DNA from: a virus
Reading direction: 5' to 3' (one strand)
DNA length: 40,969 nt
Virus record (IMG/VR): IMGVR_UViG_3300021076_000379
Coordinates: 1 to 40,969 of that record
Both the position numbers and the translations under genes were made by a program. Below are positions 2,611 to 36,973 of this stretch, piece after piece (within the stretch, counting starts at the first letter, position 1; every line of letters begins with the position of its first letter). Under the pieces are notes generated by a model that saw nothing but the letters and a program-made list of their open reading frames with translations, did no database searches and was not told the DNA's origin.

Positions 2611-3066
2611 TCAATCCTTTTTATTAGATAAATACTCTTCATAAACCAATTTCATAGGTTCAGGATATATACCATCTCCTTTCCTATTTAACCAATGAAT
2701 CTGATCAGATATTAATTTAGCGCTATCTTTTCCTTCTTTTGTCCATACATTTCCTTTCCCTGGACGAATTACTTCATAAAGAAATAAACAAGTTGCCTGA
2801 TCTTTTTTTATTCTTAAATATTTGTATATTTTTTCTAAAAACTCAATTGCTGAGGAATTTTGAATTACCCAATGACATGGACATTTCCATCCTTGTTTGC
2901 TGGCCGGACGATACAATATATGTCCTCCAAATGCTTCTTTAAGATCGTAAATTATCTGTTTGTTGGTATTTGTAATTACGATTCTGGGAGCAATACTTTT
3001 CCCACATTTAGTGAGGCCTAAACATCCTTCTCCATCAACAAGACCAGCGACATATGCTATATTCAT
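2611..3066 (-). CDS. Free-standing LAGLIDADG homing endonuclease
   Basis: A 151-residue protein with one LAGLIDADG motif at its N-terminus (AYVAGLVDGEG, residues 4-14). It also has the family's ITNTNK strand, WVIQNSSAIEFLEKI, and a C-terminal helix with LLYEVI-like character. With one motif it should act as a homodimer that cuts a long asymmetric DNA site. Its ATG overlaps the upstream stop (ATGA), so it is translated as part of the late operon. It is not inside an intron or intein: both neighbouring genes look complete. It therefore resembles the intergenic homing endonucleases of T-even phages. It is distinct from the intron-borne LAGLIDADG protein at 36364. Confidence 0.85.
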   Translation of the reverse strand: MNIAYVAGLVDGEGCLGLTKCGKSIAPRIVITNTNKQIIYDLKEAFGGHILYRPASKQGWKCPCHWVIQNSSAIEFLEKIYKYLRIKKDQATCLFLYEVIRPGKGNVWTKEGKDSAKLISDQIHWLNRKGDGIYPEPMKLVYEEYLSNKKD

Positions 3067-4299: not shown

Positions 4300-6606
4300 C
4301 TAAAACCTATAAGCCCGAGGGCCTTTCCCTAAGTTAGTAGCGTCTGTTTCTTTCTGTCCAAAGAACACAAGCCCTGAAGCAAGCGTTCTAAATGCATCTG
4401 CGCAATTATGTACAATAGCCCCATTAGACAAACAAAAATCCTCTACTCCAGGTACAGTCAAACACCATACATCAGACTTCCAAGGAAGTTTTCTTACACT
4501 TTGAACGGTACAGTGATTTACAGCGATTGCAACAGAATTTTTGATCGCCAGTTCCATTTTTTCTAAGAAGGGCTTCAAATTGCTGTGAACAATTGAGACA
4601 AGCTCTTGGTTCTCTTTTCCACTTAAGATGAGATTTAATTCTGTCTGCATGTCGTTTATGCCACAATCTGCCTTCTTCTGATGAATGCCATAAGCTCGCC
4701 TTAGTTCTACACTCGTCTGTAAAATGATTTGTGATATGAGATTTTGTTCTTTTCCAATCATTTTGTAGATGTTCTCGCGCTGGTAAACATTCCAAGTTGG
4801 ACAATTTGTTATTGAATCTATCACCGTCTCTATGATGTATATGACATCCTTTAGGAATCTCTCCAAAGGCGTCCTTCCAAACTTCTCTGTGTAAGTATTT
4901 AGTGTTTTTGAAATACTTCTCTCCAGGAAAAATTCTATATAACTTTCCATTAAAGTATTCAGTGATTGGGTCGACCCTGACTGGATCATAATACCCCTCT
5001 CTAGGTTTTCTGCTGATATCCACCCGGATGCCGTTTTGAATAAATGATCCGGCGTACATCTCACTGTAAGATCGTTTTCGAATGCAACTTCCACAAGTGG
5101 GGCATTTTTCCTGGTTATCCTCGGATTCCTGTATTCTTTCCATCCACATGATGTTAATATTACTCCACGATTAGATAGATCCATTATCCGACGCGTTCCG
5201 AATATAGTCAAGACTTCTGTCTGACCTATAAAACAATGTGAAGCCCAATTGTGGAGAGGTTGGCCCTTCCAGCAGCCGTGCTTGTCATCCCATTCTTTCT
5301 TGTAGTTCTCAAGGCACTTGATACCAGCTGAGCATTTCTTCTCATCAAACCAACAGCGATTGAATATGCCTCGAGCTTTGTCTATTCCTACGACGATTGC
5401 AGCTTTGGGAACAGCGATGAAGTTGATACCCATCTGACGAGCTGATGATTGACGATTCATTCCGCTTGTGTATTCATGAGCCATGATATCGTGAGGCGCA
5501 AGATGCTTTTCATACACATAGGGCTTAGACTTTACAACGCCCAGCCAATGCGCTAGGGACTCGCCAGAGCCTTCAATGTAGTCGATTACGTGTATCTCCT
5601 TGCCTACTAGCTGAAACCACCAAATCGATGTAGAATCGTTGTATCCTAAATCCCATGCAGTGCTTACGGGAACGGCTTCATCATATGGGACAGATGAGAT
5701 ACGCCCTTCTAATCGGGCCGTGGTTACATTCTTGGCATAATATGCGCCTTCATTGGATTGCTCCCATGCTTCTTCTGGAGTAGATGGGAACTCGCGCATC
5801 ATGTTATCGCGTTGGTTGGCCTCGACAGCTGCGTACCAGTTCTTTTGTTCGGGATCAAGTGTAATACCTCTGCCTTCGAGCGATTTGAAGTAATCCAAGG
5901 CATCTTCAGTGCATGATACCGGTGAGCCAAGTCGATATGCTGGTTCTCTCCACCAAGGAAAGAAGTGAAAGCGATAATCCAATTCTGTTAGCTTATGCTT
6001 GGAATGCTTCTGAGCTTGAGACTTTTGGCACATGTCATAGAAGTATCCTTCTTTGCCTTCAGCGGTTGATTCGATGAATACGAATTGCCCAGCAGCGACG
6101 GTATTCAATGCTCCGGTCATGACCTCTGTGGCTTTGTCAGGGGATTCAGCGCATAGTTTGCCGAACTCAGAGATATGCAGATATTGCAGAGTGCTACCAC
6201 GCATCGAGTTACCCACACGCATTGTTGATCCATTAGAGAATGATAGCTCGCGGGCACTATCTGATGTGGCTTTGATCTTCGACTTGATGTATGGATCGAG
6301 TGAATCGTATGCGAACTTGATGCGCTGGAACATGATTTCGCTGTCCTCACGCTTGTGGCAGATGATACCTGCTGTGATGCCCTCGTTGAATAGACACTTA
6401 TCCAAGAACAGCATACATACATACGTCGATATTCCAAGCTGGCGTGCCTTCAAGATGATGTTGCAATACCATAGATTATCATGAAGCTCTTGTTGGGCCC
6501 AGTTCATGCTAAATTTGATTTTGCGGCCGCGCTTGTCGAGAATGCAATATAGATTGTTGAGGCGCCATTCATCATCTGTCAAGCATTTCTCTACTTCCTT
6601 ATTCAT
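4300..6606 (-). CDS. Terminase large subunit precursor, interrupted by an intein
   Basis: Packaging ATPase and nuclease. The ATG at 6606 (MNKEVEKCL) follows GGAGATGGA; upstream in-frame ATGs lack a site. The precursor is 768 residues. Without the 277-residue intein the protein is 491, near the 499 of P22 gp2. The N-terminal ATPase shows a terminase Walker A variant (KARQLGIST), a Walker B-like strand (LHISEF) and the coupling motif IESTAEG. The C-terminal RNase H-like nuclease shows the first acidic motif (AWDLGYNDST) and the last (CADAFRTL). The intein sits between NWASH and CADAFR, directly before the final catalytic Asp, so nuclease activity should require splicing. A small zinc protein and the small terminase precede it. 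Confidence 0.93.
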   Translation of the reverse strand: MNKEVEKCLTDDEWRLNNLYCILDKRGRKIKFSMNWAQQELHDNLWYCNIILKARQLGISTYVCMLFLDKCLFNEGITAGIICHKREDSEIMFQRIKFAYDSLDPYIKSKIKATSDSARELSFSNGSTMRVGNSMRGSTLQYLHISEFGKLCAESPDKATEVMTGALNTVAAGQFVFIESTAEGKEGYFYDMCQKSQAQKHSKHKLTELDYRFHFFPWWREPAYRLGSPVSCTEDALDYFKSLEGRGITLDPEQKNWYAAVEANQRDNMMREFPSTPEEAWEQSNEGAYYAKNVTTARLEGRISSVPYDEAVPVSTAWDLGYNDSTSIWWFQLVGKEIHVIDYIEGSGESLAHWLGVVKSKPYVYEKHLAPHDIMAHEYTSGMNRQSSARQMGINFIAVPKAAIVVGIDKARGIFNRCWFDEKKCSAGIKCLENYKKEWDDKHGCWKGQPLHNWASHCFIGQTEVLTIFGTRRIMDLSNRGVILTSCGWKEYRNPRITRKNAPLVEVAFENDLTVRCTPDHLFKTASGWISAENLERGIMIQSGSTQSLNTLMESYIEFFLERSISKTLNTYTEKFGRTPLERFLKDVIYIIETVIDSITNCPTWNVYQRENIYKMIGKEQNLISQIILQTSVELRRAYGIHQKKADCGINDMQTELNLILSGKENQELVSIVHSNLKPFLEKMELAIKNSVAIAVNHCTVQSVRKLPWKSDVWCLTVPGVEDFCLSNGAIVHNCADAFRTLASGLVFFGQKETDATNLGKGPRAYRF
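4405..5235 (-). mobile_element. Intein (277 residues) in the terminase nuclease domain
   Basis: Protein-splicing element, class 1 layout. Block A is CFIGQTEVLT with Cys1; block B has the TxxH of CTPDHLFKT (residues 60-68). Block F is read in SDVWCLTVPGVEDF; block G is GAIVHN, followed by Cys as the first C-extein residue. All four junction residues (Cys1, penultimate His, terminal Asn, Cys+1) are present, so splicing should work. Between blocks B and F, residues about 85-245 show no in-frame LAGLIDADG or HNH domain. This stretch is longer than a mini-intein needs because the DNA encodes a separate HNH endonuclease in another frame (4472-5149). Confidence 0.92.
4472..5149 (-). CDS. HNH homing endonuclease nested out of frame inside the intein
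   Basis: A complete 225-residue protein read in the -1 (+2) frame relative to TerL, wholly within the intein. Residues 16-22 form CPTCGSC. Residues 84-127 carry the HNH core: YLHREVWKDAFG, HIHHRDGDRFNN and LSNLECLPAREH. A C-terminal zinc finger has C184-x2-C187 and C207-x2-C210. This is the layout of phage HNH_3-type homing endonucleases. The ATG at 5149 has only a distant GGAG, so it may be translated weakly or by reinitiation. Both frames are open for the full 226 codons, and the N-terminus overlaps the region encoding intein block B. It presumably cuts intein-less terminase alleles so the intein can home (inference). Confidence 0.85.
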   Translation of the reverse strand: MWMERIQESEDNQEKCPTCGSCIRKRSYSEMYAGSFIQNGIRVDISRKPREGYYDPVRVDPITEYFNGKLYRIFPGEKYFKNTKYLHREVWKDAFGEIPKGCHIHHRDGDRFNNKLSNLECLPAREHLQNDWKRTKSHITNHFTDECRTKASLWHSSEEGRLWHKRHADRIKSHLKWKREPRACLNCSQQFEALLRKNGTGDQKFCCNRCKSLYRSKCKKTSLEV

Positions 6607-6619
6607 TCCATCTCCATAT

Positions 6620-6823
6620 TCATGACGATCTGAACGATCTGACTCTATCATTTATGAAATCGGATCGCTGCTTGTTCCAATCAGCCATCATTTCTTGATG
6701 ATCTAATATACTCATTTCTCCATCTTGATCCCACAAAGGCGGCTCACATCTTCTGTTGCACTTGGCACAAAACCCGTAAACAACAAAATATTTGGGATCA
6801 CAAGCTTCGCACTTTTTATTCAT
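6620..6823 (-). CDS. Small zinc-ribbon protein between terminase genes
   Basis: A 67-residue protein. CEACDPKYF and FCAKCNRRC give two CxxC-type knuckles in the first 27 residues, followed by an acidic helical half (MSILDHQEMMADW). The ATG overlaps the end of the small terminase gene by 8 nt, and the stop lies 13 nt before the TerL start. It could be a terminase accessory factor, but only position supports that. Zinc binding is read from cysteine spacing. Confidence 0.7.
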   Translation of the reverse strand: MNKKCEACDPKYFVVYGFCAKCNRRCEPPLWDQDGEMSILDHQEMMADWNKQRSDFINDRVRSFRSS

Positions 6824-13030: not shown

Positions 13031-13103
13031 TGAAGAGTAGCTCAATTGGTAGAGCACCACACTTTGGTTGTGGCGGTCGGAGGTTCGATCCCTTTCTCTT
13101 CAA
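13031..13103 (+). tRNA. tRNA-Gln (anticodon TTG)
   Basis: A full cloverleaf folds by hand. The acceptor TGAAGAG pairs perfectly with CTCTTCA. The D arm is GCTC/GAGC with AATTGGTA. The anticodon arm CCACA/TGTGG encloses CTTTGGT (anticodon TTG, reading CAA). The T arm is GGAGG-TTCGATC-CCTTT with two G-T pairs. Discriminator A; CCA is not encoded. Five bases separate it from the next tRNA. Confidence 0.93.
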
Positions 13104-13108
13104 ATTAT

Positions 13109-13181
13109 TGAGGGATAGCAAAATGGTAATGCACTTCACTGTTAATGAAGCGATTTGCAGGTTCGACCCCTGCTCCCTCAG
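13109..13181 (+). tRNA. tRNA-Asn (anticodon GTT)
   Basis: Acceptor TGAGGGA/TCCCTCA pairs fully. The D arm is GCA/TGC with AAATGGTAA, one pair shorter than usual. The anticodon arm CTTCA/TGAAG encloses CTGTTAA (anticodon GTT, reading AAC). The T arm is GCAGG-TTCGACC-CCTGC. Discriminator G; CCA not encoded. It is co-transcribed with tRNA-Gln. Confidence 0.92.
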
Positions 13182-13347
13182 AAATTTCTTGTGGATAAAT
13201 TGCGAAATTCGCTAAGATTGCAATCGCCTTACCATTCCCTGGTAGGCAGATTGTTCATGAAGTCCAAAGAATATTCGGCCCCACTTGGTCTTGACTCTCC
13301 AAGTTTTCTCTGAGTGGGGAAGTTTTGGTATGTTTGATGCATTTTTT
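13182..13347 (+). ncRNA. Possible structured RNA between tRNAs and terminator
   Basis: These 166 bases carry no convincing gene but lie within the tRNA transcript. Visible hairpins: GCGAA-A-TTCGC near 13202; CCT(T)ACCA with TGGTAGG near 13228-13246; and CCCCACTTGG, later closed by CCAAG and AGTGGGG (about 13279-13319). A perfect DnaA-box match (TGTGGATAA, 13190-13198) is at its start. It could be a small RNA, a tRNA-processing trailer, or part of an origin. Confidence 0.4.
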
Positions 13348-14060: not shown

Positions 14061-14666
14061 ATGTATACTTATAACAGTTCTGATATTTCTGAATTGATGA
14101 AAGCCTTAATGGCTGCCGAAGATGAATTTGAGTCGATCCAGATGACAAAGACGGGTCAGGCTGGTTCATTCAAATTCCATTATGCTGATCTAAAGGAATG
14201 CTTTAGAGCAACCAAACCTGCTCTTAAAAAACATGGTCTTAAATGTGTAGGAGTATTTTCTACTATAGGAGATGTATTGCATCTTTCATTAGTATTGACA
14301 CATGCCGCTTCTGGTCAATGGATGAAGTCTACGATGCCAATCACGCCAGCTTCTAATTCCCCCACAGACTTGGGTAAATTTATTACTTACATGCGACGCT
14401 ACATGTATGTCACATTGCTTGGAGTCGTCAGCGATGAAGATGTAGAAGGGGATGCCTTGGATGCGGTTGAGGCCAAGAAGTCCGATAACCGATTGATCAG
14501 CAAAGACCAATGTGATGAGTTAACGAACTTAATCCTTAACTCTGGAAGAACAGTTCAAGAAGTCTTAGACAAGCACAAGATAAAATCATTGGACTCCATC
14601 AGCGAGAAAACCTATAAATCATGGGTTCAATATCTATCCAAAGGGAGCTCAGATCATGCAAGTTAA
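14061..14666 (+). CDS. ERF-family single-strand annealing protein
   Basis: Phage recombinase that anneals complementary single strands made by its partner exonuclease. The 201-residue protein has ERF family features: an early helix SELMKALMAAEDEFESI, FKFHYADLKECFRATKPAL, the LVLTHAASGQWM strand and DLGKFITYMRRYMYVTLLGV. DEDVEGD follows, then a variable C-terminus. GGAGAG precedes the ATG. It overlaps the YqaJ exonuclease gene by 11 nt, a typical pair for phage DNA recombination and circularisation. Confidence 0.88.
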   Translation: MYTYNSSDISELMKALMAAEDEFESIQMTKTGQAGSFKFHYADLKECFRATKPALKKHGLKCVGVFSTIGDVLHLSLVLTHAASGQWMKSTMPITPASNSPTDLGKFITYMRRYMYVTLLGVVSDEDVEGDALDAVEAKKSDNRLISKDQCDELTNLILNSGRTVQEVLDKHKIKSLDSISEKTYKSWVQYLSKGSSDHAS

Positions 14667-15540
14667 CATAGTTCAAGGAACTCCTGAATGGCACAGTTGG
14701 AGGCAAAGCGGTATTGGTGCTTCAGACGTAGCAGCGATCATGGGTATCAGCCCATGGCGTACCGCGATCGATGTATTCAACGACAAACTTGGCCTCAAGG
14801 AAGCATATTCCACGTCTGGGATGGCGCGTGGGAACAAATATGAAGAAGAGGCCTTTGAGGCTTACAAAGTTACATTTAAATATTCTACGCCTTATATCTT
14901 TGAGAGGTCCCCGTGCTTTTGTAGCGATGAATTATCATGGGCTATCGCTTCTCCAGACGCTTGGGAAATCGTCGATCGCTTATTGATAGAGATAAAAGTT
15001 CCCTCAGAAGAAGTGTATGAACATCACAAATCCGGAATGATAGCCCCCCATTATATGTCACAAGTGCAGTGGCAACTTTTTGTCACGGGATTCGATGTCT
15101 GTCACTTCGTGGTTTACTCTCCAGAGAAAAAAGAATACAAGATTTCTGTCATTCAGCGTGATGATGCCTATATTGCTACTGTTTTGGAAAAGGCAGCCAA
15201 GTTCTGGGATGGAGTGTGTAACGCAAGGGCTCCTGAGTCAGATAAACCCCAATACATCACTCTAGAAGACCCACAACTGCATCATTTGGCTTATGACTAT
15301 AAAGAGATGGCTAAAGAATCGAAGCGATTGGATAGGGAATTAAAGGCCTTGCGTGAGAAAATCATAGAATTCGGTGACGACAGCAATTTCCGTGCTTATG
15401 GAATCAAGGCGACATGGAACAATCCACGATCATCTTATGACATGCAGTCCATGAAAGATGATGGGATCGATATTGAGAAATATAAAAAATCTTCCGGCAA
15501 ATCCGGATATTATACATTAACTTTGGAGAGAGATGATTGA
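14656..15540 (+). CDS. YqaJ / lambda-exonuclease-family nuclease
   Basis: A 294-residue 5'-3' exonuclease that should work with the ERF protein. N-terminal GTPEWHSWRQSGIGASDVAAI is diagnostic of YqaJ nucleases. The catalytic Asp is in SPDAW and the ExK in LLIEIKVPS; APHYMSQVQWQLFVTG supplies the conserved Gln. The C-terminus (KRLDRELKALREKIIEFGDD) is helical. Length fits the family. It lies 11 nt inside the ERF end, so both are translated together. Confidence 0.92.
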   Translation: MQVNIVQGTPEWHSWRQSGIGASDVAAIMGISPWRTAIDVFNDKLGLKEAYSTSGMARGNKYEEEAFEAYKVTFKYSTPYIFERSPCFCSDELSWAIASPDAWEIVDRLLIEIKVPSEEVYEHHKSGMIAPHYMSQVQWQLFVTGFDVCHFVVYSPEKKEYKISVIQRDDAYIATVLEKAAKFWDGVCNARAPESDKPQYITLEDPQLHHLAYDYKEMAKESKRLDRELKALREKIIEFGDDSNFRAYGIKATWNNPRSSYDMQSMKDDGIDIEKYKKSSGKSGYYTLTLERDD

Positions 15541-36174: not shown

Positions 36175-36973
36175 CAATCTGTTACCCCTCTTTCGAGTGA
36201 TTAGGTCATTTCTGCCTAATTCTCGGATTTTATTTATAGTCCGAGTTCAGAGCACCGCATCTCTATTTCTAGAGTCCAACCGCTTGCTCGTTCAGCCTAG
36301 ACATTTAAATAGGAGTATGCAACAATATACATTCATCTACACACAAACAAAAGGAGAGTGTAAATGCCTGAAATTCCTTATGAAAAAGTAATTTATGATC
36401 CTATTAAATTGGCTTATCTTGCTGGTATCGTTGATGGAGAGGGCTCTCTCTGCATTTACAGAGTAAATCCTGCCAAATATAACCGGTACCAGACACCCAA
36501 TTTCAGATCTGTCCTCAATATTTCCAACACAAAGAAGGAACTTTTTGATTGGATTGAGGAGCATTTCTCTAATTTGAATCATAAATCCAAAAAACATAAG
36601 CGATCCATTTTTAAGAAAAACTCCACGCACGAGAGATGGATTTATGAATGGGTTATCCAAGGTCATCGTCTTGTTGACATTTGTACCCAAATACTTCCTT
36701 ATCTCGTTCTTAAGAAACGACAAGCTGAACTTATCCTTGAGTTTAGAGCCACCTATACTCAAAAAGGGTTCGGAGCACATACTCCTCTCAATCCAGAAAC
36801 TATGGCAAAGAGAGAAGACATCCGAGTTGAGATGTGTCGTCTTAACGCTAAAGGCTTTCTTAAAGCTGAATTCGAACATACTATTCCTATTTAAACCCTT
36901 GGCCCTTGTTGCCCTCTTTAAAGAGAGGGTTTCCAAGTCAATCAGGTTAGATTTATACAGGCCTATTATCTCA
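36175..36973 (-). mobile_element. Group I intron (799 nt) in the capsid gene
   Basis: The 5' exon ends ACAGGCU and the intron begins UGAGAUAAUA-GGCCUGU, forming a perfect 7-bp P1 that ends in the diagnostic U.G pair. The intron ends in G (..ACAGATTG) followed by the exon GAAGAT, restoring the frame. The 3' end folds as successive hairpins (CTCGGA/TCCGAG; ATTAGG/CCTAAT; CTC-GAAA-GAG) as in P9 extensions; near the 5' end CCCTCTTT/AAAGAGGG and CTTGG/CCAAG can pair. I did not derive the P3-P7 core fully. It holds a LAGLIDADG gene on the opposite strand. Confidence 0.78.
36364..36894 (+). CDS. LAGLIDADG homing endonuclease in the intron, antisense
   Basis: A 176-residue single-motif LAGLIDADG protein: KLAYLAGIVDGEGSLCIYR (about residues 15-33), SVLNISNTKKELFDWIEEHF, YEWVIQGHRLVDICTQIL and LVLKKRQAELILEF, all positions typical for the family. 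AAGGAG precedes the ATG. It is wholly inside the intron but on the strand opposite to the capsid gene, so it must have its own plus-strand promoter (candidates in 36300-36350) and cannot be made from the capsid transcript. It should cut intron-less capsid genes at the insertion site. Confidence 0.9.
   Translation: MPEIPYEKVIYDPIKLAYLAGIVDGEGSLCIYRVNPAKYNRYQTPNFRSVLNISNTKKELFDWIEEHFSNLNHKSKKHKRSIFKKNSTHERWIYEWVIQGHRLVDICTQILPYLVLKKRQAELILEFRATYTQKGFGAHTPLNPETMAKREDIRVEMCRLNAKGFLKAEFEHTIPI

Follow-up and report, generated by a model that had tools for sequence, protein, structure and literature searches.

Can a single segment of phage DNA encode a protein-splicing element in one reading frame and a separate homing nuclease in another? 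The question is raised by the gene for the terminase large subunit (TerL) of IMG/VR record IMGVR_UViG_3300021076_000379, a virus contig of 40,969 bases that was analysed over its whole length (hereafter the window). An initial annotation had proposed that an intein within TerL contains an out-of-frame HNH endonuclease gene. This observation is confirmed here, and its interpretation is supported, with splicing and the separate production of the nuclease being inferred. We consider, with a probability of roughly 0.8, that the locus is a mobile intein and that its homing endonuclease is encoded within it, out of frame, by a gene in its own right, a reading in which splicing, internal initiation, cleavage and homing are all inferences.

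Structure of the interrupted terminase gene

The features of the locus are as follows.

4300..6651 (-): TerL ORF, interrupted by the intein, 783 aa
5236-6651 (-): TerL N-extein; PHROG phrog_2 terminase large subunit, E 2e-24
4300-4404 (-): TerL C-extein, part of the TerL ORF 4300..6651
4405..5235 (-): intein, 277 aa, with C1, TPDH, HN and C+1
4972..5235 (-): N-terminal half of the splicing domain, residues 1-88 (blocks A-B), pLDDT ~97 over most of its length
5044..5055 (-): intein block B, TPDH (TPDH/TPEH in 101/102 relatives)
4519..4971 (-): intein-frame linker, residues 89-239; pLDDT mostly <50, NN/SN 0.98
4405..4518 (-): C-terminal half of the splicing domain, residues 240-277 (blocks F-G), pLDDT ~97
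4472..5149 (-): HNH homing endonuclease ORF, 225 aa, ATG start, -1 frame of TerL/intein
5084..5104 (-): N-terminal zinc knuckle of the HNH protein, CPTCGSC; Zn_ribbon_8 in 34/85 members, best E 1e-6
4766..4900 (-): HNH_3 catalytic motif (HIHHRDGDRFNNKLSNL); PF13392, E 9e-16
4520..4600 (-): C-terminal C2-C2 zinc-binding motif, present in 102/102 nested HNH proteins
4972..5149 (-): stretch of ~60 codons under purifying selection in both frames, intein residues 29-88 = HNH residues 1-59

The intein announced in the initial annotation is complete: Cys1, TPDH, the terminal His-Asn and Cys+1 were all found, and the intein alone matches Pfam Intein_splicing (PF14890) with an E value of 8e-10. It interrupts the nuclease motif of TerL (HNWASH^CADAFR). 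The 225-codon HNH gene was likewise recovered in the -1 frame, where it runs from intein nt 87 to a point 67 nt short of the intein end, giving a two-frame overlap of 678 of the 831 intein nucleotides. Its N-terminus does lie over the block B codons, as had been noted, HNH residues 32-35 (YAGS) overlapping the TPDH codons, and the zinc knuckle also overlaps the intein N-terminal half.

With its splicing residues, its predicted HINT fold and its in-frame insertion in a host gene that also exists without insert, the element has the sequence and structural features of an intein, self-excision being inferred. TerL and the intein form a single ORF, so the criterion for a split intein, separately translated halves, is not met; nor is that for an in-frame endonuclease between blocks B and F, the HNH being in the -1 frame. 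Of the features that define an HNH homing endonuclease, the catalytic motif (PF13392 in 85/85 aligned members) and the mobility pattern are present, and cleavage of the intein-free allele is inferred.

The AlphaFold model of the intein frame, built with 85 relatives, reached a pLDDT near 97 at both termini but mostly stayed under 50 along the linker, and its nearest PDB folds in Foldseek were the Ssp DnaB and gp41-1 inteins (E down to 2e-6). On the strength of this model, the intein frame is confidently predicted to be a HINT fold with a disordered linker, the latter being the HNH gene translated out of frame. The model of the HNH frame, also a confident one, had a mean pLDDT of 87 and a weak best PDB fold match, I-HmuI (E 0.05, probability 0.90), while no PDB sequence was matched by the HNH profile.

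PHROG families 30251 and 35162 match window 4405-5235 (-) in the intein-frame linker, that is, in frame-shifted HNH sequence; public families thus already hold the out-of-frame HNH translation, unrecognised.

According to the mechanism that we propose, reading of the TerL frame would yield a precursor in which the two HINT halves (residues 1-88 and 240-277) fold across the long disordered linker; the intein would then excise itself and ligate the TerL exteins, and the linker would have no function of its own except remaining stop-free. On the same mRNA, ribosomes would initiate at the internal ATG (intein nt 87-89) and produce a stand-alone 225-aa HNH protein with zinc knuckles. This nuclease would cut intein-free TerL at the conserved nuclease motif, and repair would copy the entire intein-HNH unit. 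A self-splicing intron or another RNA element was rejected, as an Rfam scan of the window gave two tRNAs only; these genes, for tRNA-Gln(ttg) and tRNA-Asn(gtt), lie side by side at 13031-13182 (+).

Distribution of the nested arrangement

Among annotated phages, tblastn located HNH relatives inside the TerL genes of Tetrasphaera phage TJE1, Rhodobacteraceae phage LS06-2018-MD07 and Acinetobacter phage Highwayman, whose records annotate only a terminase at the nested HNH site; a further match, also inside TerL, came from an unannotated human faecal contig. In all four, the HNH occupies the same out-of-frame phase and the TerL/intein frame is open. Scans of IMG/VR raised the total to 159 loci with an HNH within the intein ORF. 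Among them are 102 distinct sequences that cover the whole intein (window copy included); because of shared ancestry, these are not independent of each other. An HNH in frame with the intein, or stops breaking either frame in relatives, would have refuted the initial proposal: all 159 loci share the -1 phase, and neither frame is broken in the 102 distinct sequences.

A scan of species genomes with an 85-sequence alignment added 30 loci; an earlier bacterial-genome scan with a two-sequence alignment had returned none. In 19 of these 30 loci, as well as in a Halobacterium plasmid, the HNH is nested in an open TerL intein frame, and the nested species-genome cases, in prophages, belong to the Bacteroidota, Pseudomonadota, Actinomycetota, Myxococcota, Gemmatimonadota, Omnitrophota and Bacillota. 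Together, they make up the roughly 20 nested cases, more distant ones, from bacterial and archaeal records.

The splicing residues of the 102 nested copies are almost invariant, with C1 and the terminal N in 102/102, TPDH or TPEH in 101/102 and HN in 96/102; the +1 residue is C, S or T in 102/102. The catalytic and zinc residues of the HNH protein are likewise conserved among relatives. In the HNH tree, the window-type nested copies form one clade, and nested, split and free-standing forms are mixed elsewhere, so that this tree neither demonstrates nor rules out that nesting arose just once.

Insertion sites and mobility

TerL proteins 61-67% identical to that of the window are mostly without insert (HNFASHAADSFRTL, HNWASHGADAFRTL), and one at 58% identity carries a nested intein one codon downstream of the window site. 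Overall, nested elements occupy at least four neighbouring codon positions within the TerL motif HDWSSHxADAFRY. HNH proteins 59-66% identical to each other occur in TerLs that are only 18-23% identical, and some TerLs more than 80% identical carry HNHs just 55-61% identical.

With four-fold sites of the extein as the baseline for divergence, the pair L119/L131 differs at 46/109 extein sites vs. 0/23 sites of the non-overlapping intein (P 2e-5), and the pair L063/L099 at 59/108 vs. 3/24 (P 2e-4). Empty sites in close TerL relatives, together with elements less diverged than the flanking TerL, indicate that the element moves. Horizontal transfer and a patchy distribution are thereby established; cleavage and homing are inferred.

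Two further ORFs of the window, at 2611-3066 (-) and 36364-36894 (+), are apparently free-standing endonucleases of LAGLIDADG type, the second by a weak Pfam match; both match PHROG 5046, labelled HNH endonuclease there. Counting the nested HNH, the phage thus has at least three homing-type nucleases. Window 14061-15540 (+) encodes an Erf-like ssDNA-annealing protein and, after it, a RecE-like exonuclease; these two recombination proteins could act together in the repair on which homing depends.

Roles in packaging or exclusion have been reported for other phage HNH proteins encoded close to terminases, and the nuclease might serve DNA packaging or the exclusion of competing phages besides homing. 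Free-standing relatives adjoin TerL in the cultured phages PAE1, SN1 and Poludnitsa, which speaks for this role; many close TerL relatives, however, are without the insert, which is therefore not generally needed for packaging, and the element has been transferred separately from TerL. Such an additional role remains possible but unlikely.

Inferred translation of the nested gene

Seventy-nine of the 102 nested copies share the ATG at intein nt 87. Counting copies with a start codon at any of three nearby positions, an SD-like match of at least 5 nt with suitable spacing precedes 66% of the starts vs. 5% of random positions. Part of this match is due to the Gly-Glu-Val codons of the intein; at these codons, however, GAG outnumbers GAA more strongly (68:20) than in the rest of TerL (1528:1120; P 2e-4). 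In the window copy, 13 nt separate the upstream GGAG from the ATG, an unfavourable distance, and no well-spaced SD is present.

Instead of an internal start, -1 slippage in the N-terminal half of the intein might produce a TerL-IntN-HNH fusion. The HNH frame is exactly -1 of TerL, and in some copies it is open far upstream of the ATG; in most, however, a stop lies closely upstream, which leaves little room for slippage. Moreover, no slippery heptamer was seen in the window copy (by eye only, not systematically), and the conserved ATG, often with an SD-like motif ahead, argues for initiation at that site. We therefore regard slippage as improbable.

Stop avoidance and selection in the two frames

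Both frames of the window copy are open, as the initial annotation had claimed, but the roughly ten chance stops that it had expected are an overestimate. When the HNH protein and its own codon set were kept and synonymous codons shuffled, 3.8 intein-frame stops were expected, and only 0.28% of the shuffles contained none (P 0.0028). Across the nested copies, no intein-frame stop occurs in 102/102, vs. 2.36 expected per gene, whereas five free-standing HNH relatives have 1-11 stops in the corresponding frame. The other forward frame of the overlap stretch has 23 stops in the window, and the third frame of nested genes contains 17.8 stops vs. 17.4 from shuffling. With random codons, the used frame holds 4.9 stops vs. 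15.9 in the alternative, i.e. about one third; this greater ease of keeping it open may explain why only one phase was found.

Substitutions in 17 non-overlapping pairs were classed as S or N in the intein and as S or N in the HNH. Over intein codons 1-28, NN/SN is 0.41 and NN/NS 1.09: selection acts on the intein frame alone. The linker presents the reverse picture, with an NN/SN of 0.98 (0.82-1.20) and an NN/NS of 0.25 (0.20-0.30): amino-acid selection acts on the HNH frame only, strongly conserving its protein, and the intein-frame residues are free to drift while their frame merely stays open. Over codons 29-88, where intein block B is superposed on the zinc-knuckle N-terminus of the HNH, both ratios are low (NN/SN 0.42, 0.35-0.48; NN/NS 0.51, 0.37-0.70) and both bootstrap intervals lie below 1; purifying selection acts on both frames here. 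Intein-frame four-fold sites have diverged at 66/423 in these codons vs. 69/155 in the non-overlapping C-terminal part (P 3e-12); the contrast with codons 1-28 (49/213) is weaker (P 0.03). The purifying selection anticipated for the two frames was thus recovered along the HNH frame throughout and along the intein frame outside the linker, and not for the intein-frame residues of the linker. Judged from these substitution patterns, true two-frame selection is limited to the ~60 codons of intein residues 29-88.

It is highly improbable that only one of the two, intein or HNH, is functional and the other a decaying passenger. An intein can be maintained even when it has no active endonuclease, and mini-inteins without HNH do occur at the equivalent TerL motif (L006 and L007); strong purifying selection nevertheless runs along the whole HNH and along the intein outside the linker, and the catalytic and zinc residues are conserved. 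An inactive HNH was rejected in view of the purifying selection on its frame. Whereas a single copy alone could be read as a frameshift or assembly error that shifted an in-frame HNH, or as a chance ORF, this is ruled out by intein ends that are both in frame with TerL and by 102 distinct sequences that share the phase and have both frames unbroken.

Mini, split and free-standing forms at the terminase motif

Besides the nested inteins, other forms are found at the same TerL motif. One of the two HNH-less mini-inteins is that of Microcystis phage Mic1, and a search for relatives of the mini-intein L006 gave one partial match. In a Bacillota clade, five loci from related prophages (L248, L249, L251, L253 and L262) carry naturally split inteins at the TerL site of the nested ones, with an HNH of the same family: TerL-IntN is followed by the HNH ORF and then by IntC-TerL, and IntC shares sequence with the 3' end of the HNH ORF in the nested phase; L253 is a genome contig of Staphylococcus borealis. 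An archaeal MAG copy (L256, 3351-4727) has a single intein-frame TAG directly followed by ATGATG and IntC, and looks like an intein caught splitting, or a sequencing error. At a further locus (L266:2811-4727), an HNH ORF at the TerL 3' end is followed by a second, diverged TerL C-terminus (DLIRYFVYTVARQLNKWVI) that overlaps the HNH gene.

These forms suggest that nested and split inteins interconvert, in a direction that the HNH tree leaves unsettled. Because the linker is only passively translated, the intein could split with the nuclease untouched: one stop or frameshift, combined with re-initiation, would suffice. That out-of-frame nesting constitutes a general third mode by which inteins carry an endonuclease, and a route to split inteins, is put forward tentatively, the odds being somewhat against so broad a statement.

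Relation to known systems

In fractured genes, reportedly described by Dassa et al. in 2009 (a paper that PMC3229294 cites), an endonuclease gene of its own separates the two halves of a split intein. The TerL element resembles them in having the endonuclease encoded apart from the splicing domain within the same insertion, but the fractured host gene is broken in two, whereas TerL is one uninterrupted ORF. With the PHROG 15471 and Pfam HNH_3 families, and with I-HmuI at the level of the fold, the nested HNH shares a catalytic core plus a C-terminal region; those proteins, however, are free-standing or intron-borne, and where nested copies have an open intein frame, the free-standing relatives contain stops.

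The dCTP deaminase intein of cyanophage CL131 (PMC6293099) also combines a HINT splicing domain with an HNH_3 endonuclease within the intein. Its HNH is a domain in the same frame, unlike the TerL HNH, which is a separate overlapping ORF accompanied by an in-frame linker predicted to be disordered.

The initial annotation knew of no published example of the arrangement; a relative does exist, although without an intein. The ShiLan papers (PMC11855218, PMC12613952) describe out-of-frame HNH insertions in methylases. As in TerL, an HNH gene with zinc fingers lies out of frame in an insertion that is open in the host frame, in the same relative (third) frame (PMC11855218), and the distribution is patchy, suggesting homing. 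Neither an intein nor an intron can be detected in the ShiLan insertion, which presumably remains part of the protein, whereas the TerL element is an intact intein and has part of its DNA selected in both frames. Of the ShiLan-type criteria, an out-of-frame HNH in an open insertion is therefore met and the absence of a self-splicing element is not. ShiLan was the only other case of out-of-frame HNH insertion found in the literature, in a survey that did not cover a 2025 preprint of the same group on non-canonical actinobacteriophage inteins, which may overlap with the present work.

Significance of the nested form

Annotation currently misses the nested HNH: the three phage records and the haloarchaeal plasmid list only a terminase or a Hint protein at its place. 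The family is a rare large one in which a single DNA stretch is visibly under selection in two frames, and it supplies many HNH nucleases whose probable common target, cleavage being inferred, is a single conserved motif in a packaging gene. It indicates that a selfish element can uncouple its nuclease from its splicing domain with the host gene still in one piece, and the nested form is a candidate source, open to testing, of split inteins, which have found wide use as tools.
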